Source of the DNA: Strigamia acuminata
Taxonomy: Eukaryota; Arthropoda; Chilopoda; Geophilomorpha; Linotaeniidae
Assembly (NCBI GenBank): GCA_949358305.1
Contig: OX442314.1
Location: forward strand, 5,335,087-5,399,086
Length of the DNA stretch: 64,000 nt
Direction: 5' to 3'
Part shown: in pieces, positions 1,072-60,302 of the stretch
Numbering within the stretch: position 1 is the stretch's first letter
Layout: every line of letters starts with the position of its first letter
Position numbers and translations under genes: made by a program
Notes under the pieces: generated by a model
The model's input: only the letters and a program-made list of their open reading frames with translations
What the model was told of the DNA's origin: nothing
The model's database searches: none

Positions 1072-4000
1072 ATGCCTCCGAAATTTGAATTGAAAAGAAG
1101 GGCCTTGACCACAGCCATCCAGGCTGCAGAGACATTAATGGCCGCCATTACAACTGCCTTTGCTGGCGTGCCGGTGGTGACCAAAGACGTGCTCAGCATC
1201 TGGACAGATCAACTGGCGGGCAAAATGCTCCGCGTTACAAAAGCCAGTGATTTGGCCATGGACTTGGCAAAAAGTGACCTTGAGGTGGACGAGGTGAGCA
1301 ACGCGATCGACGCCATAGAGGACCGCGCTGCATCAACTAGAGCCGCCATTATGACGTACACTGCTCGGAATTATCCAGTTCAGCCCGCTGTGCCTCAAAA
1401 TTTACCGCTACCATTGAATCCAACAATTAACAATTTTATAAAACGAAAACCGTTGGAAGTGCCAAAATTTGACGGTAGGCGGCCAGAGGATTGGAGTGGG
1501 TTCTGGAGAACATTTGCTTCACCTGCGCACGTATCTGCACGGGGACGCTTTGAATGACATCAAAGCGTTAGAAATAACAATACCAAATTACCTGGTCGCA
1601 ATTGATCGCTTAAAAAGAAAATACGGCGATAAAATTTTGTTGGAAAACCGATTCATAAATAATTTGTCTGTTTTACCTGCAGTGAAGGACGAGAAAGATC
1701 AAGCTGGGCTGCAGCGTTTGCATCGCCACGTCGAAATAAACATTGAAAATTTAAGCAATATCGACGTGAACCTCGAGGAGTACCAAAGAACACTGTTTCC
1801 CACGCTGGCCACGGCAATCCCACGAGCACTGATGCGTGAGTACGATCGAGAGAACGCTGCAGAACGATCGGTTCCCCGCCTCATGAAGTGGCTGCACGAT
1901 TTCGTGACGAAAGAAGCGCAATACGAAATGATGGCGAGACAATCAAAACAGACTGCATCACATCAAAAATCGAATGCGACTCCCGACGCCCCGAGCTTCA
2001 AGAAGGAGAAGAAACGATTCGACAAGAGAGACAAAAGAGTCCAAGAAAGCTCCGCGTCAATGATGTCGATTGCAGTCAAGACCTGCCAATTTTGCGAATC
2101 GAAGAGCCATGATCGAAAAGTCTGCCCACTCAACGCCGAGGAACGAATGGCGAAATTAAAAGCAAAAAACGTTTGTTTTCGGTGTCTCGGACGAACACCG
2201 CACCCGACCAAAGAATGCCGCACATCAATGAAGTGCTTTCGATGCGAGGGACAGCACCACACATATTTGTGCACCAAGCCAAAATCGACGGCGACCAACG
2301 ATTCGAATTCCGGCAGACAGATTGAAGTGACTGAAATCAAACAAAATGCAGTTGTCAGCGTAAATCGACCAGCTGTTGAATTTTTGATGATCCAGATGGC
2401 ACAATTGAGCGGAGAGAAGCTGCAAACCAAGGGCGTCTGCTACATCGATGGCGGAGCACAGCGCACATTTATCCGCGCTGACGTGGCTCAAAAACTGAGA
2501 TTGAAAAAATTGGGCACGGAGAAAATAAACCTCGCCACTTTTGGTCAGCATCCCAAGATGGAAGTGAGAAACCGAGTCCAAGTGAAGATACAACCGATCA
2601 ATGGAACATCTCCAGCCATATTAATCGACGCAATTGAAACGCCACGATGCACGACCACTCCAACTGAAATTCCGACCACCTTGCTAAGCAACAAATTGAG
2701 AGACTTGGGAATCCAAGTGAACTGCAAACAGGCCGCCTTACATTCGAGCGAAGTGGACATTTTTCTTGGCGTAGACCACTACAATAAAATTACCACGGGT
2801 CAATCCAAATTTATCGAGGAAAATTTGGCTGCTGTAAACACAATTTTGGGATGGACGTTGCACGGACAAACGACGCAGGGGACACAGCTCATCGCGTCGC
2901 CGACACAAGCCAACAAAATAACCATTGTCCCTTCCACAGATGACCTGTTACGAAATTTTTGGGAGCTTGAATCGATTGGGGTGCAGCATGAATCCATGAT
3001 CGCCACAGGAGATGAGGAAATAGTCAAAAAATTTAACCAAACCATCAACTGGACAGGGAGCCATTATTCCGTCCAGCTGCCGTGGACCGTGAATCCGGAG
3101 GAGCTTGCTGACAATTATCAAATCGCCGAGCAGAGATTTCTCAACCTGGTGCGACGTTTCCGTAAGCAGCCCAATTTATATCTCGAATATAAAAAAGTCA
3201 TTGATGAGCAGATCGAGCAAAACATTGTTGAAGAGGTGCCAAAGGGCGAAGCTCCTGGTCCAGTCTACTACATGCCACATAGGCCTGTGGTCAAGGAAGA
3301 GCGAGTGACGACCAAATTGCGAATAGTATTCGACGCTTCTTCACATAAAAAGGGCCAATTGTCTCTAAATGACTGTTTATCAAAGGGAGCCAATTTACTC
3401 CCATCTTTGATTTTTATTTTGCTGAAGTTTCGAACTCATGAGTTTGCATTAATAGCCGATATCAAGAAAGCATTTCATCAAATAGAGATTGCCATGAGGG
3501 ATCGCGATGCAACTCGTTTTTTTTGGATCGATGAGATGTGGGACGGAATTGGACGAGCAATAATCAAGATTTTGAGACAAACTCGAGTGCTGTTTGGCGC
3601 TGCCCCCAGCCCATTCCTGCTGAGTGCGACCATAAAGCACCACCTGGAGAAGTTTAAGGACGAATTTCCACAAGCTGTCGAATTTATACATCAGTTTCTC
3701 TATATGGACGATTTGATTTCCTCACTGGACAATGAGGAAAAGGCGGAAGAAATTTTTCGACAAGCGCGCATCATCATGGCCGCAGCGGGAATGGAGTTTG
3801 TGAAATGGCAGACAAATTCGACCAAATTGCGAGCAATAATGCGACAAGAAGTCCCATCCGACTGCGATCTGATGAACGATGACGAAACCAAAGTTTTGGG
3901 ATTACGATGGAGTCCAAACACAGACCAAATAAGCCTTGCTGTGGAAATTACAGACGACGTCAAAACCAACCAAATCACTAAACGAGAAGTCATCCGCATG

Positions 4001-6213
4001 ACTGCACAAATTTTCGATCCATTGGGATTCGCAAGTCCATTTACCATTACGGCAAAGATTTTTTTCCAAACCTTGTGGCTAAGAAACCTGAAGTGGGACG
4101 AGAAATTAAATGAAGAAATGCAAGAAACTTGGAAAAAATGGGCGAATCAAGTCCCCAAATTGAGAGAAGTCCAACTGCCAAGATGGATTGGATTTAAACC
4201 ACATCAAGAAAACGAAATTCACATATTCTGCGACGCCAGCCCGAGAGCTTATGGCGCTGTGGCTTATATGCGCAGAAAGGAAGAAAATTTAATAATAATA
4301 AGTTTTTTATTTTCTAAATCTAGAGTGGCTCCAGTAAAACCATTGACGCTGCCCAAGCTAGAACTAATGGGCGCCCTTCTTGCAGTACGCCTCAGAGACC
4401 AATTAATAGAGGTGATGGACTGCAACCGATACCATTACTGGACCGACAGTCAGATCTGCGTGCATTGGATAACAAACACATCCATGCGACCACCAACGTT
4501 TATAAACAACCGGGCGATCGAAATCAGAGAAAAATCACATGTAAAGGCATGGAAACACGTCGCGGGCCCGGAAAATCCAGCCGATCGACTGACAAGAGGC
4601 ATTGATGCAGCGGAGCTGACAAATGACGAACTGTGGTGGAAAGGGCCAAAATGGCTAAGTGAAGAACAAGAGAACTGGCCAAATAATAAGATGGAATTAA
4701 CCATAGACCCAGACGAATTGGACAGCGAGGCTGACGAACACGAGGAGCCAAGCGGAGAAACCCACGCGAATGCAGTTCAACAAAAAAATAATCAAAATTT
4801 TGCATTTCCAATTTCCAGGTCATATTTACGCACATGTCGAGTGTGGGCCTGGTGCTATCGTTTTGCACACAACTCAAAACAAAAAGCAGACAGCGGACAT
4901 CGTCAACAAGGGGTTTTGAATGCAGAGGAACTCGTGACGGCAAAGCAAAAATTGATCATCGCTTCACAACGGCAACACTACGCCGCAGAAATGAAGCAAC
5001 TGACCGAGGGAAAACCATTGATGGCAGCATCCAAATTAAAGCTGCTCAACCCGTTCATCGATGCAAATGGAGTAATGAGACTGAGGACCAGACTACAAAC
5101 CTCCAAAGATGAACAAACAGCAACACAACCTATCGTGTTACCACAAAAATGCGAATTGACCAAACTAATATTTTCGCATTCTCATTCCCAGGTTCTCCAC
5201 TGCGGCTTGACAGCAACGCTCGCCCAATTTAGAGAGTCATACTGGACACCGGCCGCAAGGAGAACCTTAAAGTCAACGTTAAGTCGATGTGTCACGTGCA
5301 AGAAGGTGCAGGGAAAATTGATGCAAGAATCACCCGGACTGCTGCCATTTGACAGAATCACCCGTTGCGAGCCATTTGCGGTCACAGGAGTCGACTTCGC
5401 GGGACCCCTGTACATAAGAGGACGCAAAACAAAGGCATACATCGCACTGTTTACTTGTGCTAACATCCGAGCGGTGCATCTCGAATTGGTGCCCTCACTC
5501 AACACGCCTGATTTTGTCGACGCGTTCGAACGATTTGTGAGTCGCCGTGGACTACCAAAGACATTATATAGCGACAACGGGACAACTTTTCGCCGTACCA
5601 ACAAGGAATTGGCTGCATTATTGAACAATACCAAGGATGAGTCGTTCAAGAATTATCTATGCAACAAGGGGATCAATTGGAAGTTTATAGTTGAACATAG
5701 CCCGTGGTGGGGGGGATTTTGGGAAAGGATGGTGAAGACAGTCAAATCCTGCTTGAAGAAAAATATTGGGACTGCATCATTAAACTTTTTTCAATTGAAC
5801 ACTCTCCTCACCCAAGTGGAAGCTGTGTTGAATCATCGTCCGCTAACCTACGTTTATGAGAAGCCCGATGAACCTGAGAGCTTAACTCCTGCCCATTTCT
5901 TGACGGGAGAAAGAGTTACATTCTTGCCGGACCCTAGTTACATCAACCAAAAGAATACCTAACAGATTTGAAGACACAGTCTGGAAAGTCGGGACTCCTC
6001 GAATTAAAAGCAGGCGACGTCGTGTTGGTTGAAGAACAAGGCCGACCCCGGCTCCAGTGGAAGATGGGCCGTATCACTGAAGTGCGCGTTGGAAGAGATG
6101 GCAAAGTCCGATCATGTGAGCTTGTCACTTCGGGTGGGGCTAAGTTGAGGCGTCCGATTCAGCGTTTGGTCCATTTGGAGGTTCAAAGTGAGATCGGCGC
6201 GGGGGGAGTGTGA
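1072..6213 (+). pseudogene. BEL-1 gag-pol (BEL/Pao polyprotein), two frame breaks
   Basis: Starts at ATG 1072 (MPPKFELKRR). In order: a gag region with three CCHC-like knuckles (CQFCESKSHDRKVC first, near 2085-2130), a Pao-type aspartic protease ([10 protein letters not shown]), reverse transcriptase with YMDD (about 3703-3714), RNase H (IFCDASPRAYG), an integrase zinc finger (H..H, CVTCKK) and a DDE core (VDFAGP, YSDNGTTF, GFWERM). The gag frame stops at 1557. The homologous sequence resumes in another frame from about 1515, where BEL-2 has roughly 15 more codons. A second shift near 5951 removes about 25 codons before the C-terminal region (5968-6213), which is basic and ends at the LTR. 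Both breaks look like small deletions, not programmed frameshifts, because residues present in BEL-2 are missing. Confidence 0.9.
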
Positions 6214-8044: not shown

Positions 8045-11000
8045 TTACACACGATTACGCAAGCAGGCTCTGAACCAATTAAAAGTGTTTAGAATGCAAA
8101 TGAAGAAAGATAGTATTGACATTCCCAAACCTAGACCTAGAATGCTGCCGATGTCGCTTAAGAATTGAGACATTGGATATTTCTGTTTCTCCTCTATGGT
8201 CTCGGTGAAACTATCAGCTAATTGAAAGATCACAAGCGTGAAAATATTGACTGGCATATTATTCCCACGCGAAATAGTTTGGTAAAACTTATTTTTGCAA
8301 GGTCTTTTACATTTGCACTGTTTTTGATTCGAGGCATAGTTATTGAAGTACATTAGATGAGTGGTAGTAACATCTTTTGTGGTGTTGCAATCTGGTAAAT
8401 TTGATGCTGTCATATAAGGTAATCTGAAAATCGTTATGACAAGTAATTAAGAAATAGATGACAATAAAATGTGGCAATAAATAAAAATAAATGTGAAACA
8501 AGCAAACATATCTCAAAACCACCATAACGTTGACCTATTTCACTGGTGTAGTGGCACATTCATATATTCATACCAATTCACTAAATCAACACAAAGATGT
8601 GAATAAAATAAAATGTGTCAATTGCCTAGTATACCTGCAGATAATGCTTCTATATAAATTGTTTTGTACACAAGCATTTTTACACATCAAATATGTAGTT
8701 TTGTTGTCTTCACATGGATTGCGCTTTGTATTTCTTTGTATAGTCTGTTTTATAAAATCAAGTTCAGTATAAACATGATGTATTTTTTGTATACAGTAAA
8801 TTGTTTAATTTGTTACCATTAATTCTCGAAGTATAACATCATTTATCCACCCATAGCTTAACGCCAATGGTTCCAGGATGTTAACTTCTTCAGCTAGATT
8901 ATTTATGAATAACTGAATAATATAAGATAATTAAAAATTATGTGGATGCATATTGGATCACTTCCTGTAACTGACAAGTAATTTCAGGCAAATCAGTCAC
9001 AATTCATTTGAGTACACCTATTGTACCGATTGCAGGTGGCCCAAATAGAACGGGTCCCATTTATTGGTCCACTAAATGTCCTGTGATTTCCACTTTAAAA
9101 AAACTAACTCGCCCACTTACTGAATTTTCCACTAACGCTCCTTTTTTGTTCCACTAATTTTAGCCACCAAAAAAAAACTAAATGTTCCACTAAAATCAAA
9201 TTCGGAAAGAAAAAACTAATATTACCACTACTACTTCTATTTTTTTTTTTTTTTTTTTTGTGTTGCAGCTGTGCGAACGTTTTGCACACATTAGCATAAC
9301 GTTTGGCGTACGTTCCGTATGTTCCGTAAGCCTCTGTGAACAGTGGCGGATCTAGCACCCGGCTATTGGGGCTTGAGCCCCGGGCCCCCAAATTCTAGGG
9401 GCCCCCGAGACTCTGGGCCATGTACTAAAAAAAAAAAGGTCGCTAAAAAAAGAAAAAAGAAGAAAGGTTGCTATTAAAAATTTTGAGAAAGGGGCTCCGA
9501 AAAAACCTCAAGCCCCGGGCCCCCGAAAAGTTAGATCCGTCCCTGTCTGTGAAGCATGAAAGTGCTTGGAACATGCAACATAAATACACCACTTCGAGCG
9601 GGACGAAAAGAACCGGCCCGACAATAGTAACTCTTCTCGTACTGTCTGGCTGGATGATTTTATATGGGCCACCCGGTATTTGGTCTGCAATTCTATGTGC
9701 GAAATTAAAATTTAATAAGATTGCTTCTGGGCTGAATAAATGGGACAAGCTATTCTGGCACCCTACTTATACTTGTACAGTTTTCCAGTTACAAATTATT
9801 TCAAATGCCATATGGAAAAATGCACAAGAAGCTGGTTTACAGAAATTGTGCTAATCCCATTATTGATCAGTTTAAATCATGATTTACAGGAATCCAGTCG
9901 TTTCGATTCTAGTCTGTTGAGGGTAAGGTATTTATCTGTCTAATGATGATTTTAGATTACCTTCATATCATTTGAGCATACTGCTGAAGGTAGTAGGAAT
10001 TCAAATGTAAATCCAAGGCGAACTATTAGGTTGTGTGTTTTATCTGGAAAACATTGGAAAGATTAAAGTGAATTTTCAGAAGCTTCAGCTAGATCTAGAG
10101 TGCAATTTAAAATTATAGTCAAGTAACTGCTGTAGTTGTAAGAAAAGTTGAAGGCATAATACCAAAGAGATACGACACATACCGTACTGCCTTGAATAAA
10201 CGCCCAGGCGTTTATTTTTTTTTTGATTTGCCCGCCAGGCGCTTATTCACGGCCAGGCGATTATTCAAGCCAGGCGTCTATCCACAAAAAAAGTTAAAAA
10301 GTACAGAAATTATTAATACGAGTGTTTTCCAATTCAATCTTCACTGCATGCAACTTAAATTCGGTCACGGAATGCAGCAGTTTAGCCATGAAGGCGTGTT
10401 AAAAACTTCATTTGTACCGTACGTCACGTGTACGGTACAAATGAGGTAAAAAACGTTATTCGTACGTAATCAAATCCGGCGCTTAATCAAGAGCCGGCGC
10501 TTAATTACGCCCGGCCCTTATTCAAGGCAGTACGGTACCCTCCACCTTGTAGTATTGAAATCATTTAGTGTGAATGTGCTGTAACTACCGGGTGGCCCAC
10601 ATAAAACCGGCCCGACAATAAAAGGAGGGTCACTAAGGATGTCTCAAAAAAATTTAACATCCAATGTTCTATTAAATACTCTGTATGTATTAATTATTTT
10701 AGTTGTGGGCAGTGTTGTTTAATTAACGTTTCTGGTGCAGTTTCTTCCGCTCTTTCGTTTGGTATGTAGTTTTAGACAATCCGAGCTTTTGTTCTGAAGA
10801 TATTTGCGTTTTTAATCAATTTTTGTCCAAATTTACCAAGTTAGATTCCAGATTTTGTCGTATTTTTTTTGATTTTTTCAGCGCTACAGAAAAATCTCAA
10901 AAAAAAAAGCAAAATCTCACGAAATCTCGCAGATCTCGTATTGGTACATCCTAAAAAAATAAACAAAAGTACCACTGAAGAGATTCAAAAAGTACCACAA

Positions 11001-14000
11001 AATCTAAAATTCAGAAATGACCAGTGCAATCAAACTTGGTGAATTGGACGAGGATTGATTAAAATGTGATCGTTTGGCCACCCTAGTGGCCTACAAGCCG
11101 TCCCCCTCTTGGAGGAGTGGACCGGCCTAGCAGGGGAGGAGGGAGCCGAGTGGTGTGGTGAGAGAGAGACGTTGCTGAAGGAGCCGAGAATGAGGACGTG
11201 CCAAGGGAGGGCTGACACGGTCCGAGCGCCAGCAGAGACAACTGCTGACTCTGCTCCTCTCACCATTCACCACTGTGACGCTCAGTAGCAGGAAGATGTG
11301 CTTGCTGCAGCCTCCATGAGCGGCAGAATGTTCGTTTGACGCGACCGACACGTCATCCATGGGACTTAGGTTCTGTGTGTGACGGGTCGGACGCCAATGT
11401 AGCGTGCCGAACAGCTCAGCCACACAGTAAGATAGGTGGCCCAACCCCTAGACAACGATTAAAGACCAAAACCCAACAATCTGTCTTGTTATTTACGTGA
11501 TGTATGCGTCCTTCCCGTGTAGTAAACTGCACCGGTAAGACCATGCCCAGTCACAAAAATTGCAAATATCTCGAGAACAAAAGCTAGGATCGTCCAAAAC
11601 AAAACCTGAAACGAAAGAGCAGAAAAAAACTACACCAGAAACGTTAAATAAACAACACTGCCTACAACTAACATAATTAATACACATTTCATTGAACATT
11701 GCATGGTATAACACTTAACCGAAATGTCTCTATTTTGTTGACAGCAGAATTGCGCAGAAACGCCCCAAAAAACACTTGGATTACTCCTAAATAAATCTGA
11801 TTCGCCCACACTTTTTTACTTCCCCCCCCCAAAAAAAAATTATTTGCCCTCTGTTTTCTAGGAATCCCCCCAAATTTTTATTTCGCCAAATGGCGTATAA
11901 ACGTTGGATAAACGTTCATGCTTCTTGTGGTATATAAACCTGCATATTATTATTTTTTTGTATTCATGTTCAACAATGACACCGATGCACCCCGAAAGCG
12001 CAGAAAGTTGGGATTGAAATGGGCCAAAATAAAAATATTTGATAATCTCGATGAAGACACTAAACGTTACTTAGTGGTTCCTATTCTTAAAAAGACACTG
12101 CGCGAAAGTAACATCGACAAGTACATACGACAGGTTGACCTTAAAAACTGGCGCCACTTCGACACCTATATACAGTCGAAGAATAGATTATGGCTTGTGC
12201 CCATAGAAAATAGCAAATGGGACGAAGGGACTTGCACATGTCCCATTTTTTTAAAGACCTACATGTATAAACATAGCGATTGGTGAGTAGCTATACTCTG
12301 TTGCACTTGAGGCGAAAAATATCCCTCTAGGTCAGAAAAGGAAACGTGGCAGGTCGTCTAAAGCTAAAAAGGCACTGATGGCCCAATAATTTCTTCTTCT
12401 GAGGTTTGTTTTGGGGGTTAAATGAATTTTTTATGTTTTTTTTCGGGAGGGGGGGGGGGAAATCAGATTTTTCGGGGGGCAAAAGAAGTTTTTTTGGGGG
12501 GTGGAGCAGTATTTTCGGTTTAGTTTTATTTGGGGGGGGGGGGGGAATAGTTTTTTTTTGGGGGGGGGGGGGAAACGGATATTTCTCGGGGGCCATTAAA
12601 TCATATCAGTCTTTAAATCAAGTCGAGATCAGTTGAAATAATTACAGATGAACCTTTAATTCTCATTAGTCCTAAGTTTCCATATGTCAGGGCACTCAAA
12701 CACAGAAAAGGAACACACAAAAAGTAAGATTAAGGGCCAGTAGAAATAAGACTACGGCTCAGTAAAAGCTGTGAGACTAGAAGATCATATTAGCTAGTAG
12801 AACTAAGCTTGTAAAGAGATTGAATCCAAGTGTATATGTGTATTTACCCATGTATATGTTCGTATACCTGTATTGATTTGTGTACAATGTCCAAAAGGAA
12901 GGGGAATAAGGCTTTTTGATGCATTAAGCGCTGCTTTATATCCTTGAAAATACTATAAATATCAAATAATTTAATATAATATTTTACTCAAGGTTATATT
13001 TAGAAACATACCTTATAACCTAATTCATTATTAAGTGAGACTGTTTCGTGGACGTTGAGTTTTTCCCAGATTTCGTCCAATGATAAATTGTTGTCGAACA
13101 ATTGCCACGGTGATATGTTATTGCAGGTCTTGTTAGTTCGATTCATTAAGTTCATTCTGGCTTCATCAATATCATCATCTTGTGTTTCACCACAGACCGT
13201 GACAGACGGATATTGGGTAAAGCGTCGTGGAACTATGCTCACTGTTTTTGTTATCGGTTCTTCAATGTAGTAGGTCAATCGAATTTGCAAGCAATACAAA
13301 GTGAATCCCGAGCAAATTATAACCAGAATTGTCTTAAGTTTACGTGAAACTCCATTTCTTTTAATTGGCTCCTGACTCTGAGTTATGTTCTTTGAGCATT
13401 TGTCATAAACTCGGTGAATCTTATTAACCTGTTTATTTTTCCAAATCTTTGCTAGATACCAAGCGATTTCGGGCAATGAGGTTAAAGACAGACCGAGAAA
13501 TAAGCCCAGATTTCCTCCTAAATCTGATAGTAAAGCAATAACATCATACGTGTACCGTTCTTCATACACAGTGATTTTATCATTAGATAGTGCTAACGAT
13601 GCGGATATAGTGTTTTTATCATCTGCTATGCCGGCATCAGTGTGAATTATAAACATTAACTGTTCACATGGGCGTCGACAGAGACAATCACCAATTGGAT
13701 CAGTGGTTTCAATTAAACGGTTTGCAATACCGTACAGCTCATGGGTGGTATTCGAGCATTCGCAGAGTGGTAAATCTATCTTTGTAAAGGGTAATCTGGC
13801 AAAGAAGATGTTTCATCACTTTTATTTTAGTTGTATTTGTATATTATGCATCTTACCTGCAAAACACATATTTTTTTAATTTCTTAATTAAGCATGCACG
13901 ATAACATTCTTTGTATTCGTTTTCACTGGAGCATGAACTCATAGATGAATTGAGAAATATGAACTTAAATGCAATAAGTTATAAAATTATTAGTTGCTAA

Positions 14001-14983
14001 TTTTCATTTACAGTAAGATTTAAAATTTTACTTTGTCAAAACTCAAATTAATTCTTAATGCGTCACCAAGGTATTGTGATGTTACATGCTGATTTCTTCC
14101 GAATTCGTAGAGTGACATGTAAAACTATGTGGGTGAAAATAAAAATTCAGAAAAATTTCATTTTCTGATATATTGCAAATAATGTAGTACGATTACCAGG
14201 TAAGGAGATGTAGGACATACGTAGTCATAAGTTTTTTCAATAGTTGCTGTAAATAATTCTTGATGAAATGATTTACTATATGCTAAAGTTGTACCAATAA
14301 ATGATATTTGTATAATTAATGAGAGGAGTGTTTTTTGTTTATAGTTACAGAATTGAAATGTTGAGCAAATTCCATATGTGGTGTCAGTTTCCGTGAGAAC
14401 AAGTGTTTTGTTTGACAATCCCTGAACATGTTAAATTATGATTTCTTATTTAAAAAATAATTTCTACTACATTTACCTTCATTTTAATGCTGACTATCTC
14501 TTTGCTCAAATTGGTTGCTCTCCAAAGTTCATCCATATTGTAAGTTGGAATTGCCATCAGATTTTTGAACATGTTTATACATTCAGCTGGGACTGAACCG
14601 AAATTAATTGGTCCAGTAGTCTTGATGTTCTCAAAAGTTTTATTCCAAAGCGTGGCCATTTCTTTTGTGTTGCCACTGCAGATCATCAAATTTGGTAACT
14701 CAATATTTTCCGATTTGGTCGTCACGTCAACAGCCGTAGGATAACTTAAGTAATGCATTACTCTATCGTACGTCTGATAAGTGAGCATGCATGTGCAAAG
14801 TAGGAGCAAAATGAACCAAAGTGTATGACGTCTGCTCCAATGTTTTCTACTGTTTATGAAATCATCCAGACCAATTAAGCTGCAGTTTGGTTTGTTGGCG
14901 TCATCTTTTATCATGAGTTGAATTTCTGTACGTAGTTTTCTTAATCTTTGCATATTTCGTCCCATCAAGTAATTTTTCTGCAT
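8045..14983 (-). CDS. Gene A: tandem double DEG/ENaC ion channel, 10 exons, 822 aa
   Basis: Exons: 14477-14983, 14197-14421, 14032-14124, 13857-13963, 13012-13795, 12868-12952, 9961-10043, 8817-8912, 8635-8744, 8045-8423. The sum is 2469 nt, in frame throughout, with GT-AG junctions. Module 1: TM1 at about residues 54-71 (HTLWFILLLLCTCML), an extracellular part with paired cysteines, and TM2 at about 396-425 with the GLS form of the GxS selectivity filter (residues 412-414). A ~40-residue linker follows. Module 2: TM1 at about 466-484, then YPSVTVC as in other DEG/ENaC proteins, a second Cys-rich ectodomain (CKCKRPC), and TM2 with GMS (797-799). DEG/ENaC channels are sodium-selective or cation plasma-membrane channels made of three two-TM subunits. 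Here two subunits are fused. Ectodomains are shorter than usual. Introns 6 (2.8 kb) and 7 (1.0 kb) are swollen by inserted elements; the rest are short. Ligand or gating stimulus is unknown. Confidence 0.88.
9021..9859. mobile_element. Composite insertion in intron 7 of gene A
   Basis: Compared with gene B, whose intron runs directly from GAGTACACC to ATTACTGATC (51353-51370), gene A carries about 840 extra bases. The inserted piece has inverted ends of the type GGTGGCCCA-A/T-ATA (near 9034 and, reversed, near 9660). It contains a poly-T tract (9239-9259) and the hAT MITE listed separately. No protein was recognised. Confidence 0.6.
9341..9545. mobile_element. hAT-like MITE (205 bp)
   Basis: The ends are inverted: CAGTGGCGGATCTAG at the left and, on the other strand, CAGGGACGGATCTAA at the right. 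An 8-bp duplication TCTGTGAA lies at 9333-9340 and 9546-9553, as for hAT elements. The interior is rich in GGGCCC blocks and A-runs and does not code. Confidence 0.88.
10182..10535. mobile_element. TA-target MITE, CCGTACTGCC family (354 bp)
   Basis: Inverted ends CCGTACTGCCTTGAATAA are flanked by TA at 10180-10181 and 10536-10537. The interior has repeated CCAGGCG/GCCGGCG blocks. A shorter relative (48144-48312) sits in the Gypsy-2 LTR. The TA target suggests mobilisation by a Tc1/mariner-type transposase. Confidence 0.85.
10660..11715. repeat. Fold-back inverted repeat in intron 6 of gene A
   Basis: The arm at about 10680-10845 is inverted at about 11556-11712. Shared blocks include GCTCTTTCGTTT, CTTTTGTTCT and GGCAGTGTTGTTTA. 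The single arm is also present in gene B (about 52690-52880). A solo LTR (11065-11555) occupies part of the loop. Confidence 0.7.
11065..11555 (+). mobile_element. Solo LTR S1 (family TGTGAC...GTCACA)
   Basis: About 491 bp, starting TGTGATCG and ending CCCAGTCACA, with AAAA on both sides (11061-11064, 11556-11559). It is related over its length to S2 (40230-41332) and S3 (56405-56903). A shared CCCCTAGACAAC segment near the 3' third and GTTATTTACGTGA mark the family. No internal retrotransposon sequence is attached. Confidence 0.8.
11918..12286 (+). pseudogene. Transposase fragment with a decayed SWIM zinc finger
   Basis: An open stretch ends in GTCTCPIFLKTYMYKH, which resembles the SWIM finger (CxC...CxH) at the C-terminus of Mutator-like (MULE) and some other transposases. 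The third ligand is Tyr instead of Cys. Upstream residues are basic (RKRRKLGLKW) and charged. The frame closes right after the finger at a TGGTGAGT that could be a splice donor. It lies antisense inside intron 6 of gene A, so it is probably a relic. Confidence 0.55.
12440..12585. repeat. Poly-G / G-rich tract
   Basis: Runs of 8-12 G separated by short T/A stretches. It is low-complexity and could form G-quadruplexes on the plus strand. Long open frames across it are artefacts of the repeat. Confidence 0.8.
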
Positions 14984-15548: not shown

Positions 15549-16047
15549 TGTTAAACTTGAAGTAAATAAAAAGATATTCAAAGTTTACCAATTAATTTCT
15601 AAAGTCCTTGACTACAAGTGGATGTAACAGTTGAAAATCGCGTTGAAGTCCAAGATGGCGTTGGAGTATAAAGAAGCACGACCACACAGTTTTAGTTGAA
15701 AAAGTACACTGAGTTTTTATTCTAATCTTAAAAGGAAAAGGAAATGCAAATGACACGGTTCGCAGAACCAATCACAAGCATCCGTGAGATAGGGGAATGA
15801 CGTGTTCAGGTAGAGGAATGCAAAACGGATTAAAGGGATTAACATGTCAAGATTCCAATAATAAAAAAACAGGTCAATACATATAAGTGGAAATAAAAAT
15901 ACATTATAACAAATTGGCAAAATCACAAATAAAATATCGAAATCTCGAATAAAAATGGAAATACAAAGAAACAATATAAATTCAACAATACAAATCAAAT
16001 AATGTAACTAAACAATAATTCACGCGTAAAATCATCCGATTTTCACA
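15549..16047 (-). repeat. BEL-2 3' LTR
   Basis: 499 bp; reads TGTGAAAATCGG... on the minus strand and ends ...AAGTTTAACA. One mismatch was seen against 39615-40113. Confidence 0.95.
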
Positions 16048-17123
16048 CTGCCGGGCGGGGGTCGTTTGACTCCACTTCCAAACGTACGAGACGTTGTATC
16101 GGTCGACGCAAATGTTCTCCACTGGCTAGCACCATTTCACACGATCTGATTTTATTATCTCGACCCTTTCTAACTTCGACCACTCTGCCCATCTTCCATT
16201 TTAGACGTGGCTTAAATGGTTCTTCAATGATAACGACGTCGTTTAACTGGAGTTCTCGCGCGCACGATTTGCCCGTTTGAATTTTTAGATCTGTTAAATA
16301 CTCCCGAGACCAACGATTCCAGAACGAGAGTAATACGCGTTGCTGGTAGCGCCATTGTCGAACAAACTCCTTCTGAGTCGGTTCGATGCTGTCTGTTGCT
16401 CCCGAGTCAGGTAGGTGAGTCAACATCACGCCGGTCAAAAAGTGCGCGGGCGTAAGTGGCTCAATTTCGTTTGGGTTGTCATACACGTAGGTGATCGGTC
16501 GGCGATTTATTACTGCTTCGGTTTGCACAAGAAAAGTTCCGAGCTGATAGAAGTTCAAGTGCGCCGAACCGATTGCCTTCCTCAAACACCTCTTGACCGT
16601 CTGCACCATCCTCTCCCAGAACCCGCCCCACCACGGTCCGTTTTCGACGATGAACTTCCAATCGATGCCCTTTTGGGCCAAGTAATTTCGAAACGTCTCG
16701 TCCTTCGTGTGGTTTAAGAGTGAGGCGAGCTCTTTGTGGGCGCGGTGGAATGTAGTTCCGTTGTCGCTGTACATCGTTTTCGGAAGCCCTCGGCGACCAA
16801 TAAAGCGCTCGAACGCCCCCAAAAAGTCTGTTGTTGCTAGCGAGGGCACCAATTCCAAATGGACGGCTCGAATTGTCGCACATGTAAATACAGCTACGTA
16901 CGCTTTAGTTTTCCGTCCCTTCACTATTATTGGTCCCGCGAAGTCGACTCCGGTGACTGCAAACGGTTGGGTTTTTGACGTCCTGTCGGCTGGAAGGGCG
17001 CCTGGCACTTCCCGCATCAATCGTCCGTTGATTTTTTTGCAGACGACGCAACGATCCAACATGGTCTTCAAGGTCCTCCTTGCGGATGGAGTCCAGTAGT
17101 TTTCCCGAAATTTGGATAGCGTG
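16043..17123 (-). pseudogene. BEL-2 integrase, C-terminal part
   Basis: Continuation of the same polyprotein after the insertion. It contains the CVVCKK half of the zinc finger, the DDE core (VDFAGP, YSDNGTTF, GFWERM) and the basic C-terminal domain ending in a stop inside the first bases of the LTR. It joins the N-terminal part in frame across the GATG target, so before the Gypsy-N insertion BEL-2 looked intact. Confidence 0.93.
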
Positions 17124-17127
17124 GATG

Positions 17128-18145
17128 TGTCGCGCTCAACTCTAACCGTCGCTAACTCGTGGGTTGATTACTTAATTCGACTAACTCACTACCGCTTTGC
17201 TCAAGCGGTTTACCCAAAGAAATGATTACACAGATATAAAAGGTAAAATATAATATAGATTTATTCTGCGGGGCAATGTACAGATATATCTTATATATAT
17301 ATATATAAAGGGTAAGTAAAAGGTAAATCGGAATGGGTGATGGGGAATGGAAAGGTAAAGGTAAGATGAAAGCTGGCTGGAATCGGCGAGGTCGTCTGTT
17401 GTCTCGTGCGTGTCCAAGATGGCGTCCTCGTTGTAGCAACGTGATGTCGTCTTGGGCCGGCGTGGCAATATGGCGTCCTCGGCTCGTCTCTGGCTGGTCC
17501 TTCGGGCTCACGCTGGTCGGGCGCGAGTGAATGCTTAGTTAAAAGGCTTACTTCGGTCTGTTGTCTAGGTTTTTGTGTGGTGTCCGGCGATCACACAGCG
17601 GCGGACTCTTCTGGCTCCCGGCGGTCACACAGCGGCGGGAACGCTCGTCGTGGTTTTACTGCAGTTTAGGCTTGTGCGACCGTTTGTCTGCACAACTCGC
17701 TAAACTGGAGTGGTTTTTACTATTTCTAGCTGGTGTGCTAAAATAGTGTGGTAATCTTATCTCGCAGGTTACTCTGCGGAGTTTGACACTGACCAAACGT
17801 ACTCACGGTAAATTGTCCTTTGTCCTTGGTCAATCCCAGTATATTTACTTGGGCCTGATCTTGTAGGACGACGGGTTTTACGTGTGTTTCTCGTTTGATG
17901 GTTGTGTTGGTTCTGCCCGCTCAGTGCAAGGCACATTCCTTTGCACAAAGCGGGGTTGACAGGTGACCAGAATCACCCAATGGTGGGGTGGACGAACCAT
18001 CCCCACTCCCTCAGGGCAGACGCCTGTCCATTGACTAGATGTCAATGCACTGAGGGAAGGGAGACGCGCTTGCGGCTCCCCTTACACCCGAAACGAGGTC
18101 ACGAGAGAAACTCTTCGTTGACCCCGGTCCAGTCGGGTCACAACA
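17128..18145 (-). repeat. Gypsy-N 3' LTR
   Basis: 1018 bp, TGTTGTGACC... to ...GCGCGACA on the minus strand. No difference from the other LTR was seen by eye. It contains a TATATATA stretch (about 17290-17307) and an AATAAA signal (minus strand, near 17265), as promoter and polyadenylation signals. Confidence 0.95.
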
Positions 18146-22359: not shown

Positions 22360-25300
22360 TTACTTCTTTCCTACGACCTTTCCGCCTTTTATAAACGGAT
22401 TATCTCTTTTTGGTCGCAGGTTACGGATCGAGGCAGGTACGATATTTTTTGTTGTTTTTTGTGTCTGTACCTCCTCATTATTGTTTTCTTTTTTATCCGT
22501 GTTTTTTGTGTTTGTTTCAGGAGTTTCTCCTGTTTCCCCCCCGACCAAAATTGGATCCGGAACGGATTCAACGATCTCGTTGACCGGAGGTGAAGGGGCG
22601 TCGAAATACTCCTCGTTGTCACTTGGCGGTGCTTTTTCCGACTCGCCAGCGAACATATCGACGATTTGGCCGTCAGTTTTAGACTTGACTTGGCCCTTGG
22701 CCCACATTTCTTGCGGGAATTCCGGAATGTACGGAGTTAACTCTCGTACCTGGATCGATTTTTGCTCGGTGTTGTCCTCGAGCTTGCGTAATTTATACGC
22801 GTTACCGCCATGCTTGCCGATGATTACATACGGGCCATCTCTCTTGTCGGCCAAGCTGGCGGTGATTCCTCTCGCTGCATTTGAGAGGGTGTGTGCATCT
22901 TTCCACACCAAATCATTGATCTCGAAATTCACGAATTTTCCACCGCTTTTATCTTGTAAAATGCGGTCGCGCATGTTAAAAATGTGCGCCATCATATGCT
23001 TGTATGTGTTCGAAATTGTTTGCTCCAATTTATACACATACTCATGTGGTTTCTCTGGGTCCACCACATTTACCGACTCTGCCACTCGTGGGTCCCAAGG
23101 CACTCGTAGCTCTCGGGCGAAGTTGAGGTAGGCCGGAGAAAAATCTCTCGTCCTCGAGACTGTTGTTCGTATGCTGAACGCGATCTCCCTCAAGTATTCA
23201 TCCCACCTATTGTGGATTTCAGTGAATATGCTTAGTGCATATTTAATGTCCCTGTTGAGTCGCTCAACGGAATTTGTTCTAGGATTGTAGGTCGAAGTAT
23301 GTGACGCCACAATCCCGAATTTTTTACAAAACTTACCCCAAATTTTCGAGATAAATTGGGGTCCGTTATCGGATATTATTTTACGTGGAAATCCGTAACG
23401 TAACGCCACGTCGTAGATACATTCAACGATTTTCTCTGCTGAAGGTCTAGCGACGGCGTACAACTCGGGCCAACGAGTCGCCACGTCCATTATAACGATA
23501 ATGTACGCATTTTTATTTCCCGTAACGGGTTTTGGGCCCATCACATCGACACTTAAACAATCAAAAGGCGCGTAAGGCCCTAAGAAAATAGTTTCGAATG
23601 GTGATTTACTCCTCGGCTTGCACGCTTGACATCGCTGACATTGGTGGACAAAAAGAGCAATATCTTTTTTCATCCCTGTCCAGTGAAAAAGCTGTGTAGC
23701 ACGATAGAGTGTTCTGCTTACTCCCGCATGGCTCGCAAGCGGGTGCCCGTGTAACAACCACAGCACGCGACCGATTAAGGAAGCAGGTATTACTACCTTT
23801 ACTGCGGTGTCCGATTCACTCAAGTCATCTTGGTGATTTGGGTGATGTTTCACTAAAAGGCCGTCATCCAATAGGTAATCTATGGATTCGTGTGCATAAC
23901 GACGCTTCTGCCTTCTGGTTAAGTTGGGCGGATATTTTCCTGTCAGTACGAATCTAGCTCTGTCCTGACATTTTTTGTCTAATTTTTGCTGCACAATTAT
24001 TTCCTCCCTTGTTGGGGGATTGCTTTTCATTTGCTTGCTGACACGAGCGTGGAAGGCGCTTAGAAGCGGGTCATTTATTCTCCGCTCTAGCTTAAATTCC
24101 TTCTTTGCATTTGGGTAATTGTCAGCAGCTGGTTGGTATAACCGCGTCCAGAATCCACAGAATTTTACATCTGCCGGAGACGCGGTAGGAATTTCATTCA
24201 TCTTCCTTAAATCCCAACGGTGACAACTCGTAGGGCAATAAATGATGCGGGAGTCATCCTCGCCATCATCGTCAGCGTCGATTGGATCTGACACTGGTGC
24301 CCGTGACAGAGCGTCAGCCACGACGTTATATTTGCCGGGCTTGTATTGAATGGTCAAGTCGCATGCCATCAGTTCTAACTGCCATCTGGCTAGTCGACCG
24401 GCTGGCTCTTTTAATTTCATCAGCCATTGTAACGCTTGATGATCTGTGTGGACCACAAATTTGGTATATTCGAGATAATCTCTGAATTTCCTTATGGCCC
24501 ACACAACGGCCAAACACTCCAACTCGGTGGCATTGTAATTCTTTTCAGCGCCTTGGAGTTTGCGACTTATAAACATGCACGGCAGGTCTTGTTCGACTCC
24601 GTCGCGCACGTGTGTTTGGAGCAACGCCGCTCCTAACCCAACTCTGCTGGCGTCCGTATGTAATATGAACGGCCGGTTTAAGTCGGGTAGAGGCATTACG
24701 CCGACTTCCGTCAGCATCCTCTTTATCGCATTAAATGCGATGTTGCACTCATTTGACCATACAAATTCGTTTTCATTCTTCAGGAGGTCGGTAACTGGGG
24801 CTGCCACTTCAGCTAGACCCGGTAGCAACCTGCCGAAGAAGTTTATCATTCCCATAAACCGTTGGACACCTTTAACGTCCTCGGGTGGTGGGAAACGATT
24901 AATCGCATCGATTTTTTCGGGGCCAATAGTTAAACCATTGACTCCAATGCGATAACCCAGGAAGGCAAGCTCCTTTCGACAGAACTTGCTCTTACCCGGG
25001 TGCACGTGTAACCCAGCTTTTGCCAGCCGGGTGAGCACTTGGTCGATGTGCTCAATGTGTTCTTCGAATGTTTTGGAGGCAATAACTATGTCATCTAGGT
25101 ATGCCCACACAAACTGGTGCAATATATCGCCCAATACGCTCTCGATTAGTCTCTGAAAGGTACTGGGAGCATTCACTAAACCAAATGGCATGACGTTGAA
25201 CATCAACCGTCCAATTGGCGAGTAAAATGCTGTTTTTAGCTTATCCTCTGGCCTCATCTCAACCTGCCAGTATCCCTTCGACAGATCCATCGTCGTAACC

Positions 25301-26430
25301 CAAGAAAAGGGGCTGAGCTCTCTCAAAATGGATTCGATAGACGGCATCTGTATGGGATCTATCTCTGTCACCGCGTTTAATGGGCGGTAATCAATGCATA
25401 GGCGTGGGTCCGAGCCCGGGCGCATCACGAGCACAACTCGCGTCGCGTATTCTCCCTGGGCCTCGGAGACAATGCCACTGTCTAGCATTTCTTGGCACAT
25501 TTTTTGCACTATTTCACGTTTTTGCGGGTTCATTCCCTTATACGCAACTCGTATAGGTTTATTATCCGTCAATTTAATTCCGTGAATAGCCCTATTCGTT
25601 CGGCCCGGTTTTTTCGACAGGATCCCCTCATATTTAAGTAGGACCCTTCGTAGGGCTGCCGCTTCGTTTAATTCTAAAGCGGCGTCGGCGACAAGCGTTT
25701 CCACTACATTGTCCCGTTGCAATTCTGTTACGAATGCTTTAAAATCGTAGTCTTGAACGAATTTCTTTAGGCCTTTCTCCCACTGTGTCTTGTCGGCCGC
25801 TTCTTTTACAAGAGCTGGTGGCACGACAATTGCGGGTCTTTCCTTATCATTTCTGATATAATTCCAAGATTTCGTTATTGGATTTGGTTGTATTTCCATT
25901 GACGCCATGAGGTCTAAGCCCAACAGAAAAATTCTGTCGCATGTGGGCAGGACCAGGAAAGGGTGCTGTTCTACTCCTCCGAGCCACTCCATGGTCAATA
26001 ATATAACTCCTTTTGGACGCGCCATTCCGTTGGCGGTTTTTAGACGTATATTTTTATTAACGCCTTTTATCTTATCGGTGAGACCCAATGATGCTACTAT
26101 GTCTTCGGAAACGAACGAGCGATCTGCTCCCGAGTCTAGTAGTCCCATAATTTTTTCACGTTCTATTGTCATGGGCAACATACATAGGCGGTTGGTGTAT
26201 TCGACCGCCACGTTGCACATGAAAACACGAAATTCTTCTGTGTCTTCGACTACTTGAGGTAATTCTTCAAGCAGTAGGTTCGGTTCTTCCGCTTCAGCTT
26301 CAGCGTTTGCGGTAATTACCTGCAAACCGTTGTTGGCCCTGTCTTGAATTTGGGCGTTAGCTATGTCACTACCCATTTCTTTGACTGGTGGCGGCTTATC
26401 GAACCCTTTGTTAAACCCCTTTTTCTTCAT
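22360..26430 (-). CDS. Gypsy-N pol (protease, RT, RNase H, integrase), 1356 aa
   Basis: A full-length frame. Retropepsin DSGA is at about residues 99-102. Reverse transcriptase has YLDD at 444-447 and the usual VMPFGLVNAP upstream. RNase H starts near 590 (HTDASRVGLGAA). The integrase zinc finger is HAGVSR...CQRCQACK. The DDE core shows DVMGP, SDNGPQF and NSVERLNRD. The C-terminal tail is acidic then basic (LRPKRDNPFIKG). Typical for Ty3/Gypsy. No break was seen, so this pol may be functional. Confidence 0.93.
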   Translation of the reverse strand: MKKKGFNKGFDKPPPVKEMGSDIANAQIQDRANNGLQVITANAEAEAEEPNLLLEELPQVVEDTEEFRVFMCNVAVEYTNRLCMLPMTIEREKIMGLLDSGADRSFVSEDIVASLGLTDKIKGVNKNIRLKTANGMARPKGVILLTMEWLGGVEQHPFLVLPTCDRIFLLGLDLMASMEIQPNPITKSWNYIRNDKERPAIVVPPALVKEAADKTQWEKGLKKFVQDYDFKAFVTELQRDNVVETLVADAALELNEAAALRRVLLKYEGILSKKPGRTNRAIHGIKLTDNKPIRVAYKGMNPQKREIVQKMCQEMLDSGIVSEAQGEYATRVVLVMRPGSDPRLCIDYRPLNAVTEIDPIQMPSIESILRELSPFSWVTTMDLSKGYWQVEMRPEDKLKTAFYSPIGRLMFNVMPFGLVNAPSTFQRLIESVLGDILHQFVWAYLDDIVIASKTFEEHIEHIDQVLTRLAKAGLHVHPGKSKFCRKELAFLGYRIGVNGLTIGPEKIDAINRFPPPEDVKGVQRFMGMINFFGRLLPGLAEVAAPVTDLLKNENEFVWSNECNIAFNAIKRMLTEVGVMPLPDLNRPFILHTDASRVGLGAALLQTHVRDGVEQDLPCMFISRKLQGAEKNYNATELECLAVVWAIRKFRDYLEYTKFVVHTDHQALQWLMKLKEPAGRLARWQLELMACDLTIQYKPGKYNVVADALSRAPVSDPIDADDDGEDDSRIIYCPTSCHRWDLRKMNEIPTASPADVKFCGFWTRLYQPAADNYPNAKKEFKLERRINDPLLSAFHARVSKQMKSNPPTREEIIVQQKLDKKCQDRARFVLTGKYPPNLTRRQKRRYAHESIDYLLDDGLLVKHHPNHQDDLSESDTAVKVVIPASLIGRVLWLLHGHPLASHAGVSRTLYRATQLFHWTGMKKDIALFVHQCQRCQACKPRSKSPFETIFLGPYAPFDCLSVDVMGPKPVTGNKNAYIIVIMDVATRWPELYAVARPSAEKIVECIYDVALRYGFPRKIISDNGPQFISKIWGKFCKKFGIVASHTSTYNPRTNSVERLNRDIKYALSIFTEIHNRWDEYLREIAFSIRTTVSRTRDFSPAYLNFARELRVPWDPRVAESVNVVDPEKPHEYVYKLEQTISNTYKHMMAHIFNMRDRILQDKSGGKFVNFEINDLVWKDAHTLSNAARGITASLADKRDGPYVIIGKHGGNAYKLRKLEDNTEQKSIQVRELTPYIPEFPQEMWAKGQVKSKTDGQIVDMFAGESEKAPPSDNEEYFDAPSPPVNEIVESVPDPILVGGETGETPETNTKNTDKKENNNEEVQTQKTTKNIVPASIRNLRPKRDNPFIKGGKVVGKK

Positions 26431-26453
26431 GAATGGCGCAGACGGTCGAGAAG

Positions 26454-26782
26454 TTATTTCTTCGCCGCCTGCGCTGACTCGTTTTTTGACTCGTTTTTTG
26501 CCATGGCGAGTTTAATCTCTGCCATCTGCTTCATTATTGCGTCAAATTTAGCGTCTTCTTTCGCTGTTCTTGGGCACTCATTGGAATAGTGACCCGGTTG
26601 GTTACACTTGAAACAACGAATATTTGATTTGTCTCTTGGGGCTTCAGTCGATTTTTTCTTTTCAGGGTCTGCTTTCGACGGTGGCGTGTAATTTTTCCGA
26701 AAATACTTCGGAATTCGGCCGGCATTTGGTTTTAACCTGGCGCGAAATTCTTCTACCGCTCTATCTCGATGGATGAGATGTA
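26454..26782 (-). pseudogene. Gypsy-N gag, C-terminal part with CCHC knuckle
   Basis: Continuation of gag beyond the Tc1-type insertion. The frame is kept if the 4.7-kb element and one TA are removed. It has one CCHC knuckle (CFKCNQPGHYSNEC) and a Lys/Ala-rich tail. It stops at 26454, 23 nt before the first ATG of pol in a different frame, so pol may be made by reinitiation or frameshifting. Confidence 0.85.
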
Positions 26783-34343: not shown

Positions 34344-35361
34344 TGTCGCGCTCAACTCTAACCGTCGCTAACTCGTGGGTTGATTACTTAATTCGACTAA
34401 CTCACTACCGCTTTGCTCAAGCGGTTTACCCAAAGAAATGATTACACAGATATAAAAGGTAAAATATAATATAGATTTATTCTGCGGGGCAATGTACAGA
34501 TATATCTTATATATATATATATAAAGGGTAAGTAAAAGGTAAATCGGAATGGGTGATGGGGAATGGAAAGGTAAAGGTAAGATGAAAGCTGGCTGGAATC
34601 GGCGAGGTCGTCTGTTGTCTCGTGCGTGTCCAAGATGGCGTCCTCGTTGTAGCAACGTGATGTCGTCTTGGGCCGGCGTGGCAATATGGCGTCCTCGGCT
34701 CGTCTCTGGCTGGTCCTTCGGGCTCACGCTGGTCGGGCGCGAGTGAATGCTTAGTTAAAAGGCTTACTTCGGTCTGTTGTCTAGGTTTTTGTGTGGTGTC
34801 CGGCGATCACACAGCGGCGGACTCTTCTGGCTCCCGGCGGTCACACAGCGGCGGGAACGCTCGTCGTGGTTTTACTGCAGTTTAGGCTTGTGCGACCGTT
34901 TGTCTGCACAACTCGCTAAACTGGAGTGGTTTTTACTATTTCTAGCTGGTGTGCTAAAATAGTGTGGTAATCTTATCTCGCAGGTTACTCTGCGGAGTTT
35001 GACACTGACCAAACGTACTCACGGTAAATTGTCCTTTGTCCTTGGTCAATCCCAGTATATTTACTTGGGCCTGATCTTGTAGGACGACGGGTTTTACGTG
35101 TGTTTCTCGTTTGATGGTTGTGTTGGTTCTGCCCGCTCAGTGCAAGGCACATTCCTTTGCACAAAGCGGGGTTGACAGGTGACCAGAATCACCCAATGGT
35201 GGGGTGGACGAACCATCCCCACTCCCTCAGGGCAGACGCCTGTCCATTGACTAGATGTCAATGCACTGAGGGAAGGGAGACGCGCTTGCGGCTCCCCTTA
35301 CACCCGAAACGAGGTCACGAGAGAAACTCTTCGTTGACCCCGGTCCAGTCGGGTCACAACA
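34344..35361 (-). repeat. Gypsy-N 5' LTR
   Basis: Same length and sequence as 17128-18145, and directly followed on the minus strand by the primer site. Confidence 0.95.
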
Positions 35362-35365
35362 GATG

Positions 35366-38300: not shown

Positions 38301-39557
38301 CCTACATTCTTCCGTCTTGTGGGGCACTTTCCCCAAGCACCTCATGCAAATCCCTTTTTTCTGCAGTCTTTTACGTCTCTCCTCCATCGTGAGCGGGCAT
38401 CTTTTCCGATTGTGTTCTGTGGAATCGCAAAATTGACATTTCATTATTAATACTGACAGTTGCGACGCCGATCCCGATCGAGGTTCCTTTTCTTTTCGAC
38501 TAAATCGTCCTTTGTTGGGGAGATTGTTGTCCGACGTTTTGTTGTGAGACGTTTCTGGCTTCGATTGGGTTTTTAGCATGTCGTACTTGGCGTGTTTAGC
38601 AATGTGATCACTCAACCAATCCATTAACTTCGTTATCGATCGCTCTCCATCGCAGTCTTTGTCATATTCCATGATGATACTACGTGGAACTGCAGACGAC
38701 AGCACGGGAAAAATGGTCCGCTGTATTTCCGCCAGTGGTACTTCGATGTTGGCCAGATTCTCTATGTTGACTTCCACGTGTCTGTGCAGCTTCTGTAAAC
38801 CCATTTGATCTCGCTCGCTGCTAACAGATGGCAAATTTATGAGGTTAGACAAGTATTTATTCTCGAGTACGATTTTGTCGCCGTATTTCTTCTGCAGACG
38901 TGCGATTGCGACGGTGTAATTTCCTGCGGTGATCTCGAGTGCTTTTATATCGTCGAGCGCCTCTCCAACCAGGTAATTTCTTAAATATAGAAGTTTATTT
39001 GTTCCGTCCAGTTGCTCGTCGTCACCGACTTGGATCGAAAACGTTTTCCAAAACCCTCCCCATTCTTCTGGCTTACGTCCGTCAAACTTGGGTATTTCAA
39101 GTGGCTTACGTTTGATGAATGGTTGACCGTTCGTCGGCGTTCCGCGTGGTGTTGCCGCCGTCACTGCTGCGGTAATGGCCGCCGCTAGCGCGTCGAAGTC
39201 CGCCGCCGGTTGTGCGTCCGCGTTCGGTCGTATGTTCTGGGGTAAATTAGGTGGGTAATTCATTTGAGTGTACCTGCTTAGATCGGCTCTTGATGCGGCC
39301 AAGCGGTCCTCCAATGCGTCGAGTGCTATTACGGTCTCGTCAATCTCCTGGTCGTTTTTTGCTTGATCCAGTGTGGCGTCGAACGTTTGTTGCACTCGCT
39401 TCTGTTTTTGTTCGAGCTGTTGCAGCCATAATTCGATTGTGGCTTGCGGAATTGCAGCTCGCCCATTCAGCGCAGTGGTTATCGTGGTCAGGAGTGTTTC
39501 CGTGACCATCATGGCCGCTCGGAATGCTTTGTTCTTTAACTCGAAATTTCTCACCAT
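35366..39557 (-). pseudogene. BEL-2 gag-pol, N-terminal part
   Basis: Starts at ATG 39557 ([10 protein letters not shown]) and stays open to the Gypsy-N insertion, about 1397 codons. Gag has an N-terminal helical region and knuckles [29 protein letters not shown] and [13 protein letters not shown]. Then come the Pao-type protease ([10 protein letters not shown]), reverse transcriptase with YVDD, RNase H ([11 protein letters not shown]) and the start of the integrase zinc finger ([11 protein letters not shown]), where it is cut. The sequence is related to BEL-1 throughout. Relative to it, BEL-2 keeps the gag segment that BEL-1 has lost. Confidence 0.93.
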
Positions 39558-39595
39558 TTTAGTAGATTTTTAGATGAATTCGGAATTTAAAATGT

Positions 39596-47953: not shown

Positions 47954-48085
47954 TTTCGTGAAAAATCAATGTAAACACGACCACGCCCACTTTGCAAAAA
48001 CACTCACACCACTCAAAGTAATGGATGACAAGTCCAGTTTTTTGATGCGAATGGATTCCTTGTTCGTTTTGATCCTCGTCGCCAA

Positions 48086-52685: not shown

Positions 52686-52999
52686 AATGTTCAATAAAAT
52701 ATGTATTAATTATTTTACTTGTGGGCAGTGTTGGGTTTAATTAAGGTTTCTGGTGCAGTTTTTTCTGCTCTTTCGTTTGGTGTTTTTGATGATCTGAGTT
52801 TTTGTTCATGAGATATTTGCGTTTTTAATCAATTTTTGTGCAAATTTACCAAGTTTGATTGCAATAGTCATTCCTGAATTTCAGATCCTCACACATTAGA
52901 ACACAGAAAAAGTAAGATTAAGGGCCAGCAGAAATAAGACTAAGGGTGAGTAAAAGCTGTGAGAGTAGAAGATTACATTGGCTATACGTATAGCCAGAG

Positions 53000-59644: not shown

Positions 59645-60302
59645 ATGCAGGGAAATCACTTGTTGAGAAGAAATATGCTAAGATTAACCAAACTACGCTC
59701 TGCAATTCAACTTATGATGAAAGATGATGCCAATAAACCAAACTGCGGTTTAATAGGTCTGGAAGATTTCGTAAACAGTAGAAATCATTGGAGCAGGCGT
59801 CACACATCTTGGTTGTTTTTGCTTCTATTTTGTACATGCATGCTCACTTATCAGGCATACGATAGAGTAATGCATTACTTATGTTATCCTACGGCTGTTG
59901 ATGTGACGACCAAATCGGAAGAGTTTGTGCTACCAGATTTGATGATCTGCAGTGGCAACACAAAAGAATTGGCCAGGCTTTGGAATAAAACTTATGAGAA
60001 CATCAAGACTACTGGACCTATTGATTACGGTTCAGTCCCATATGAATGTACAAACATGGTCAAAAATCTGATGGTAAATTCAAATTATGATATGGATGAA
60101 CTTTGGAGAGCGACTAATTTGACCAAAGAGATAGTCGGCATTAAAATGAAGGTAGAAAAAATAAAAAATATTTTTATAAATAATTAGTCTTAATTTAATT
60201 CGTTTAGGGATTTACAAACAAAACAGCTGTTCTGACGGAAACTGACACTTCATATGGAATATGCTCAACATTTCAATTTTGTAACTATAAACAAAAAAAA
60301 AA

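Follow-up and report, generated by a model that had tools for sequence, protein, structure and literature searches.

The genome of the centipede Strigamia acuminata appears to carry an old and much expanded family of DEG/ENaC channel genes in which two complete channel modules follow each other in one chain. The gene from which we started, gene A, lies on the minus strand (14983–8045) of a 64,000-nucleotide stretch of contig OX442314.1 (assembly GCA_949358305.1, positions 5,335,087–5,399,086 of the forward strand), which is referred to below as the window and which also holds two paralogues, copies B and C. Its hallmark is a single open exon, the fused exon, in which the end of module 1 is followed by a 39-amino acid (aa) linker and the start of module 2. 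Exon matches spanning both modules were found at at least 281 distinct loci on ten contigs. An earlier note, made from the letters of the window, had seen one such gene; the double-module design proves to be real and to extend far beyond it. We place the probability of the double-chain family at about 0.9 on sequence grounds, a figure that holds for the family alone and excludes the seating of the modules in a channel and their function.

Results

The gene A model was built from splice sites and by comparison with the two paralogues within the window, exons 3, 6 and 7 being located by comparison with copy C. All nine introns are GT-AG, the phases fit and the frame is open for 822 aa, with filter motifs GLS from residue 412 and GMS from residue 797; the ten in-frame exons, the length and the filter positions reported in the earlier note were recovered exactly on this rebuilding. 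Exon 5 (13012–13795, minus strand, as are all exons of gene A) contains the end of module 1 with its second transmembrane segment (TM2) and the GLS filter, then the linker (13333–13449, ends set by alignment), then TM1 and the start of module 2. It measures 784 bases in A, B and C and has two stretches matching the Pfam family ASC (PF00858) in one open reading frame. As TM2 of module 1, the linker and TM1 of module 2 sit in this single open exon, the modules are joined without any splicing decision, and the same arrangement within one exon is seen in B and C. Upstream, exon 1 (14477–14983), which matches Pfam ASC, encodes the start methionine, the cytosolic N-terminus, TM1 of module 1 and the beginning of the ectodomain; it ends at a GT donor in phase 0 and has an equal length in copy C. 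The ectodomain of module 1 continues through exon 2 (14197–14421, phase 0), exon 3 (14032–14124, of equal length in copy C) and the cysteine-rich exon 4 (13857–13963, 107 bases in A, B and C), all bounded by GT-AG. Downstream, the ectodomain of module 2 is spread over exon 6 (12868–12952, 85 bases), exon 7 (9961–10043, 83 bases, starting in phase 1), exon 8 (8817–8912, 96 bases) and the cysteine-rich exon 9 (8635–8744, 110 bases), all again GT-AG and each of the same length in A, B and C. Exon 10 (8045–8423), entered through an AG acceptor in phase 2, the same as exon 5, holds the end of module 2 with TM2, the GMS filter and the stop codon.

Searches with PF00858 returned two stretches in gene A (145 bits), the better of which, module 1, covers profile positions 4–453 of 455. 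Module 2 searched alone covers positions 26–450 of 455 with 67 bits against a cut-off of 23.6. Two nearly full profile matches bear out the claim of two complete DEG/ENaC modules in one reading frame, and at the DNA level gene A departs from the canonical chain of one module and two transmembrane segments. Each module has 17 cysteines, some of them outside the ectodomain. A hydropathy scan lifted only two of the four transmembrane segments above threshold, and the count of four is therefore taken from homology. Gene A would specify one 822-aa chain with four such segments, two DEG/ENaC modules and a cytosolic 39-aa linker.

How far does this architecture extend in the genome? The assembly (237,517,015 bases, 157 contigs; the window is C1:5335087-5399086) was searched with four fused exons, those of A and of loci L040, L045 and L047, which gave 143, 134, 130 and 136 rows, respectively, 543 altogether. 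Row and locus counts are lower bounds, because only the best candidates were scored per query (142 of 1675, 133 of 1649, 130 of 1623 and 136 of 1490). Spanning rows, 511 of the 543, were typed by limits estimated for each query, 32 partial rows were dropped by eye, and spanning rows less than 700 bases apart were merged into one locus. A stop-free spanning row exists for 252 of the at least 281 loci, and 231 have no stop in any row. Since 146 loci were met by a single query only, the family is not exhausted. It is large, tandemly arrayed and diverging, as would be expected of a chemoreceptor repertoire, with 131 loci on C1 and 73 on C6, and the lowest identity of spanning rows among the matches listed is 26% to A and 22% to L045. 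Two trios of fused exons have identical scores (C6:1766217, 1784608 and 1797870; C4:3023069, 3036434 and 3049783), which are either very recent tandem copies or assembly duplicates.

The outer parts of the genes accompany the fused exon. For 77 of 83 close fused exons, a module-2 terminal exon follows in the same orientation ahead of the next fused exon (median distance 2.7 kb), and an opposite-strand exon 10 lies inside 15 of the 83 intervals from one fused exon to the next; the pairing used these 83 exons and 99 of 150 exon-10 rows, distant and some partial rows being left out. Six distant loci with 30–33% identity to exon 5 of A were fetched. In four of them (L040, L042, L043 and L044) an exon resembling exon 1, the fused exon and an exon resembling exon 10 follow one another in that order, and spliced alignment gave rough double models of 777–805 aa with both filters kept, models that omit 53–113 query residues and include doubtful small exons. 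The corresponding model for L039 was not believable.

Selection has left its mark on the fused exon. When neutral evolution was simulated in a simple way (5000 runs), the frame of exon 5 survived in each of the three window copies in a fraction of 0.0006 of the runs. Over ten pairs, picked by eye as close relatives and not from a tree, the pooled ratio of nonsynonymous to synonymous substitution rates (dN/dS) of the exon-5 parts was 0.25 for module 1 (p 4e-30) and 0.44 for module 2 (p 3e-9). Among the window copies the ratio ranged over 0.13–0.32 in module 1 (exons 4–5) and 0.38–0.66 in module 2. Of 30 close loci, 28 have a linker of 39 aa, one has 44 aa and one 36 aa; in the six distant loci its length is 42–53 aa.

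The two modules differ in their pore residues. In the numbering used here the GxS filter occupies positions 10'–12'. All nine readable modules 2 retain this motif, as do 38 of 39 modules 1; the cut rows L017 (ended by the locus edge) and L036 are not counted among the readable ones. An acidic residue occupies position 18' in 36 of 39 modules 1 but in one of the nine modules 2, the others having I, H or R there. Read by eye, the pair before the filter is GG in 36 of 39 modules 1 and GS or GN in all nine modules 2. The eight best PF00858 matches (L001-L008) served as single-module subunits for comparison: barring an intron before the stop, each of their reading frames ends shortly beyond TM2, acidic 18' and GG are present in all eight, and three have GxC as the filter. 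With GxS kept, acidic 18' mostly lost and GG altered, module 2 has the look of a modified partner in the pore, neither a dead appendage nor an equal twin. PF00858 clusters outside the fused-exon list lie at C4:7.358-7.377 and 7.89 Mb, C11:5.265-5.278 Mb and C3:13.19-13.24 Mb. Four matches from those on C4, L002, L005, L007 and L008, look like single-module subunits and could be partner subunits.

Modules 1 and 2 of gene A are 25% identical (90 of 359 positions). Each of the four module-1 introns has a same-phase intron in module 2 within 0–3 alignment columns, and module 2 has one more. A tree of 37 TM2 halves (121 columns, root not known) grouped the nine modules 2 with branch support of 100/98; modules 1 and the eight single subunits were not cleanly separated in it, and several end branches are long. 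The chain probably goes back to a single old fusion of two adjacent subunit genes, in which the terminal exon of one became continuous with the opening exon of its neighbour, and a large tandem expansion would have followed. Lineage-specific duplicates of Strigamia maritima are reported to be enriched in functions that include 'sodium transport' (PMC4244043), although the main text of that paper does not contain ENaC, degenerin, pickpocket, amiloride or sodium channel as whole words; the expansion may thus be common to the genus. No match turned up among the bacterial and archaeal contigs that were scanned, as expected for an animal gene.

Copies B and C were traced by tblastn. Paralogue B (50469–54930, minus strand) has exons 4–10 open, with its fused exon at 54762-53979, and exons 1–3 were not found upstream of exon 4. 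Paralogue C (59645–63486, plus strand) has all ten exons. Exon lengths are identical to those of gene A for all seven exons present in B and for eight of ten in C, the departures being an insertion in exon 2 and an exon 10 longer by 6 bases. The insertion (window 60300-60980) consists of about 0.7 kb of short AT-rich tandem repeats with a unit of about 22 bp by eye. Spliced alignment, in which the aligner was free to find an intron, reads it as a GT-AG intron and gives an open 829-aa model, so that the insertion need not have made C a dead copy; it is possibly a young intron made from satellite. A match to the fused exon of copy C also lies on C32, a contig of only 61.5 kb, and is probably a haplotype copy that was left unplaced. 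As the two entries, L018 (C32) and L019 (C1), are identical, one gene is entered twice in several counts. Partial extra module-2 terminal exons lie just downstream of A (7784-7563, minus strand), where a stop codon stands in place of the first residue of the filter, and of B (50203-50007, minus strand), with a frame change; they are probably remnants of one more paralogue.

The surroundings of the genes are rich in long open reading frames that by eye resemble retroelement polyproteins (1442-5962, plus strand; 16046-17167, 22363-26511, 35301-39569 and 44009-47965, minus strand). Within gene A, the large intron that separates exons 6 and 7 holds repeats common to other parts of the window and, at 12445-12575, several long G runs.

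Discussion

What can a chain of two modules build? Subunits of the ASIC, ENaC, degenerin and pickpocket kind have two transmembrane segments and one module, and three subunits make a channel (PMC10148893, PMC9822975). They have PF00858 homology, the GxS filter and, as judged from homology, a cysteine-rich ectodomain in common with gene A, and E18' in common with module 1, but their chain is one module and that of gene A two. The best-scoring solved relatives of module 1 are BRTNaC1 (E 1e-20) and PDPNaC1 (E 5e-17), and BRTNaC1 is also that of module 2 (E 1e-14). Both are centipede channels (PMC12714832, PMC12804983), and PDPNaC1 is described as a homotrimer (PMC12714832). Their compact size is similar to that of the gene A modules (BRTNaC1, 8YMR and 8YMX; PDPNaC1, 9JF7), but their chains hold a single module (431 and 421 aa, respectively, in the PDB copy), whereas gene A has two. 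Engineered ASIC1a concatemers, which are used as defined trimers (PMC5449180, PMC8871370), likewise place whole subunits head to tail in one chain; they are, however, man-made and join three subunits of one kind, whereas gene A is natural and joins two unlike modules. The earlier note knew of no described family with this design, which agrees with our survey of the open-access literature, where titles and abstract openings gave no description of double-module or expanded DEG/ENaC chains (subscription papers, supplements and protein databases were outside its scope). In K2P and other tandem-repeat channels an ancestral one-module subunit has been doubled in one chain. Two K2P chains of two modules supply the four that are needed; two modules, by contrast, do not divide three.

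With odds that we put slightly short of even, the double chain is a built-in heteromer. The linker would seat modules 1 and 2 of one chain side by side in the same trimeric pore, module 1 supplying the customary ring of acidic residues beneath the filter and module 2 acting as the changed partner. An ordinary subunit with one module would take the third seat; the genome has several of these. The earlier note had argued that whole chains, each being a covalent dimer, cannot add up to a trimer. This stands for one pore but fails in general, since three whole chains hold exactly two trimers, and a twin-pore assembly is therefore also possible, in which three linkers would connect a trimer of modules 1 with a trimer of modules 2. 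Such a channel is commensurate with whole chains, and it suits the retention of GxS in both modules, their near-full Pfam matches and the purifying selection in exon 5. The pore of the second trimer is the difficulty. In ASIC1a, Na+ selectivity is set by acidic residues 18' and 21' below the GAS belt (PMC5449180), so that a pore made purely of modules 2, with an acid at 18' in one of nine and GG replaced before the filter, would lack the ring in question. Moreover, a linker length nearly fixed at 39 aa would be better matched to an adjoining seat than to a separate trimer. We regard the twin pore as unlikely, and only marginally ahead of an arrangement with two chains per channel, in which one module stays outside the trimer or serves only trafficking or ligand binding. 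The latter does without a partner subunit and would accommodate the faster evolution of the exon-5 part of module 2 relative to module 1, but a spare module would be expected to lose its filter, which none of the readable modules 2 has done, and substitution in the exon-5 part of module 2 is strongly non-neutral. It, too, is doubtful.

A more conventional outcome would be two ordinary subunits from each locus, made through the use of alternative promoters, through splicing that leads into the linker, or through internal initiation together with early polyadenylation. A methionine is present in 14 of 36 linkers. In Drosophila, llz, a DEG/ENaC gene, is described as co-transcribed in an operon-like manner (PMC2827562). 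Nevertheless, the modules share one exon and one frame, the linkers of A and C have no in-frame ATG and 22 of the 36 have no methionine, and the linker length stays at 39 aa in nearly all close loci although the linker sequence drifts. The single-module subunits stop soon after TM2, as against 231 loci free of stops across the fused exon. Separate subunits are therefore improbable. An artefact of gene prediction or assembly, or a set of pseudogenes, might be suspected from the interrupted exon 2 of C, the missing exons 1–3 of B and the loci seen only with stops, but is very nearly negligible given that the fused exon is a contiguous open reading frame independent of gene prediction, lies on ten contigs under purifying selection, and comes from a high-fidelity (HiFi) assembly with a quality value (QV) of 59.6 (PMC10556566).

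Several of our results weigh against the double chain or against the built-in heteromer, and they should be set beside these arguments. The seating of the modules is something that we infer, and an AlphaFold prediction of the fused exon from a three-row input was worthless (predicted local distance difference test score, pLDDT, 28.8). Stops mark every row of 29 of the at least 281 loci; no terminal exon was found for six of the 83 close fused exons; and of the six distant loci, L041 has no recognised exon 10 and L039 neither outer exon. The intron matches between modules are exact in two cases and off by 1 and 3 columns in the other two. Constraint on the amino acids of the linker is undetectable over the ten pairs (pooled dN/dS 0.80, p 0.29), its A-B value of 4.23 rests on one synonymous change, an open linker in A, B and C arose in 0.23 of the neutral-simulation runs and is not unusual, and some linkers contain a methionine. 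Parts of module 2 look relaxed: the A-B ratio is 1.01 in its exon-5 ectodomain part and, over the whole module, 0.66 without significance (p 0.056), and the module-2 stretch of the pair L015-L020 gives 1.03.

What would such a family do for the animal? The inferred chains are most likely sensory receptor channels, because the family is large and arranged in tandem and because DEG/ENaC channels, both centipede ones included, have known sensory roles. Strigamia acuminata is a blind soil centipede. Its at least 281 loci, copies with stops included, dwarf the 31 DEG/ENaC members given for Drosophila (PMC12304301). Expansion of the odorant-receptor family is said to be confined to insects (PMC4244043), and the double chains are a candidate sensory receptor family outside them. 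A double chain is at odds with the usual three-subunit channel and raises the question of how it builds a pore; now that a natural, conserved and expanded example is at hand, the choice between a built-in heterotrimer, a twin pore and a spare module becomes a testable question. We speculate, as an unlikely extension, that geophilomorph centipedes possess an undescribed repertoire of hundreds of four-transmembrane receptor channels, in which each variable double chain would hold a pair of unlike subunits next to each other and the trimer would be completed by a single-module subunit common to all, comparable to the variable receptor and common co-receptor of insect smell.

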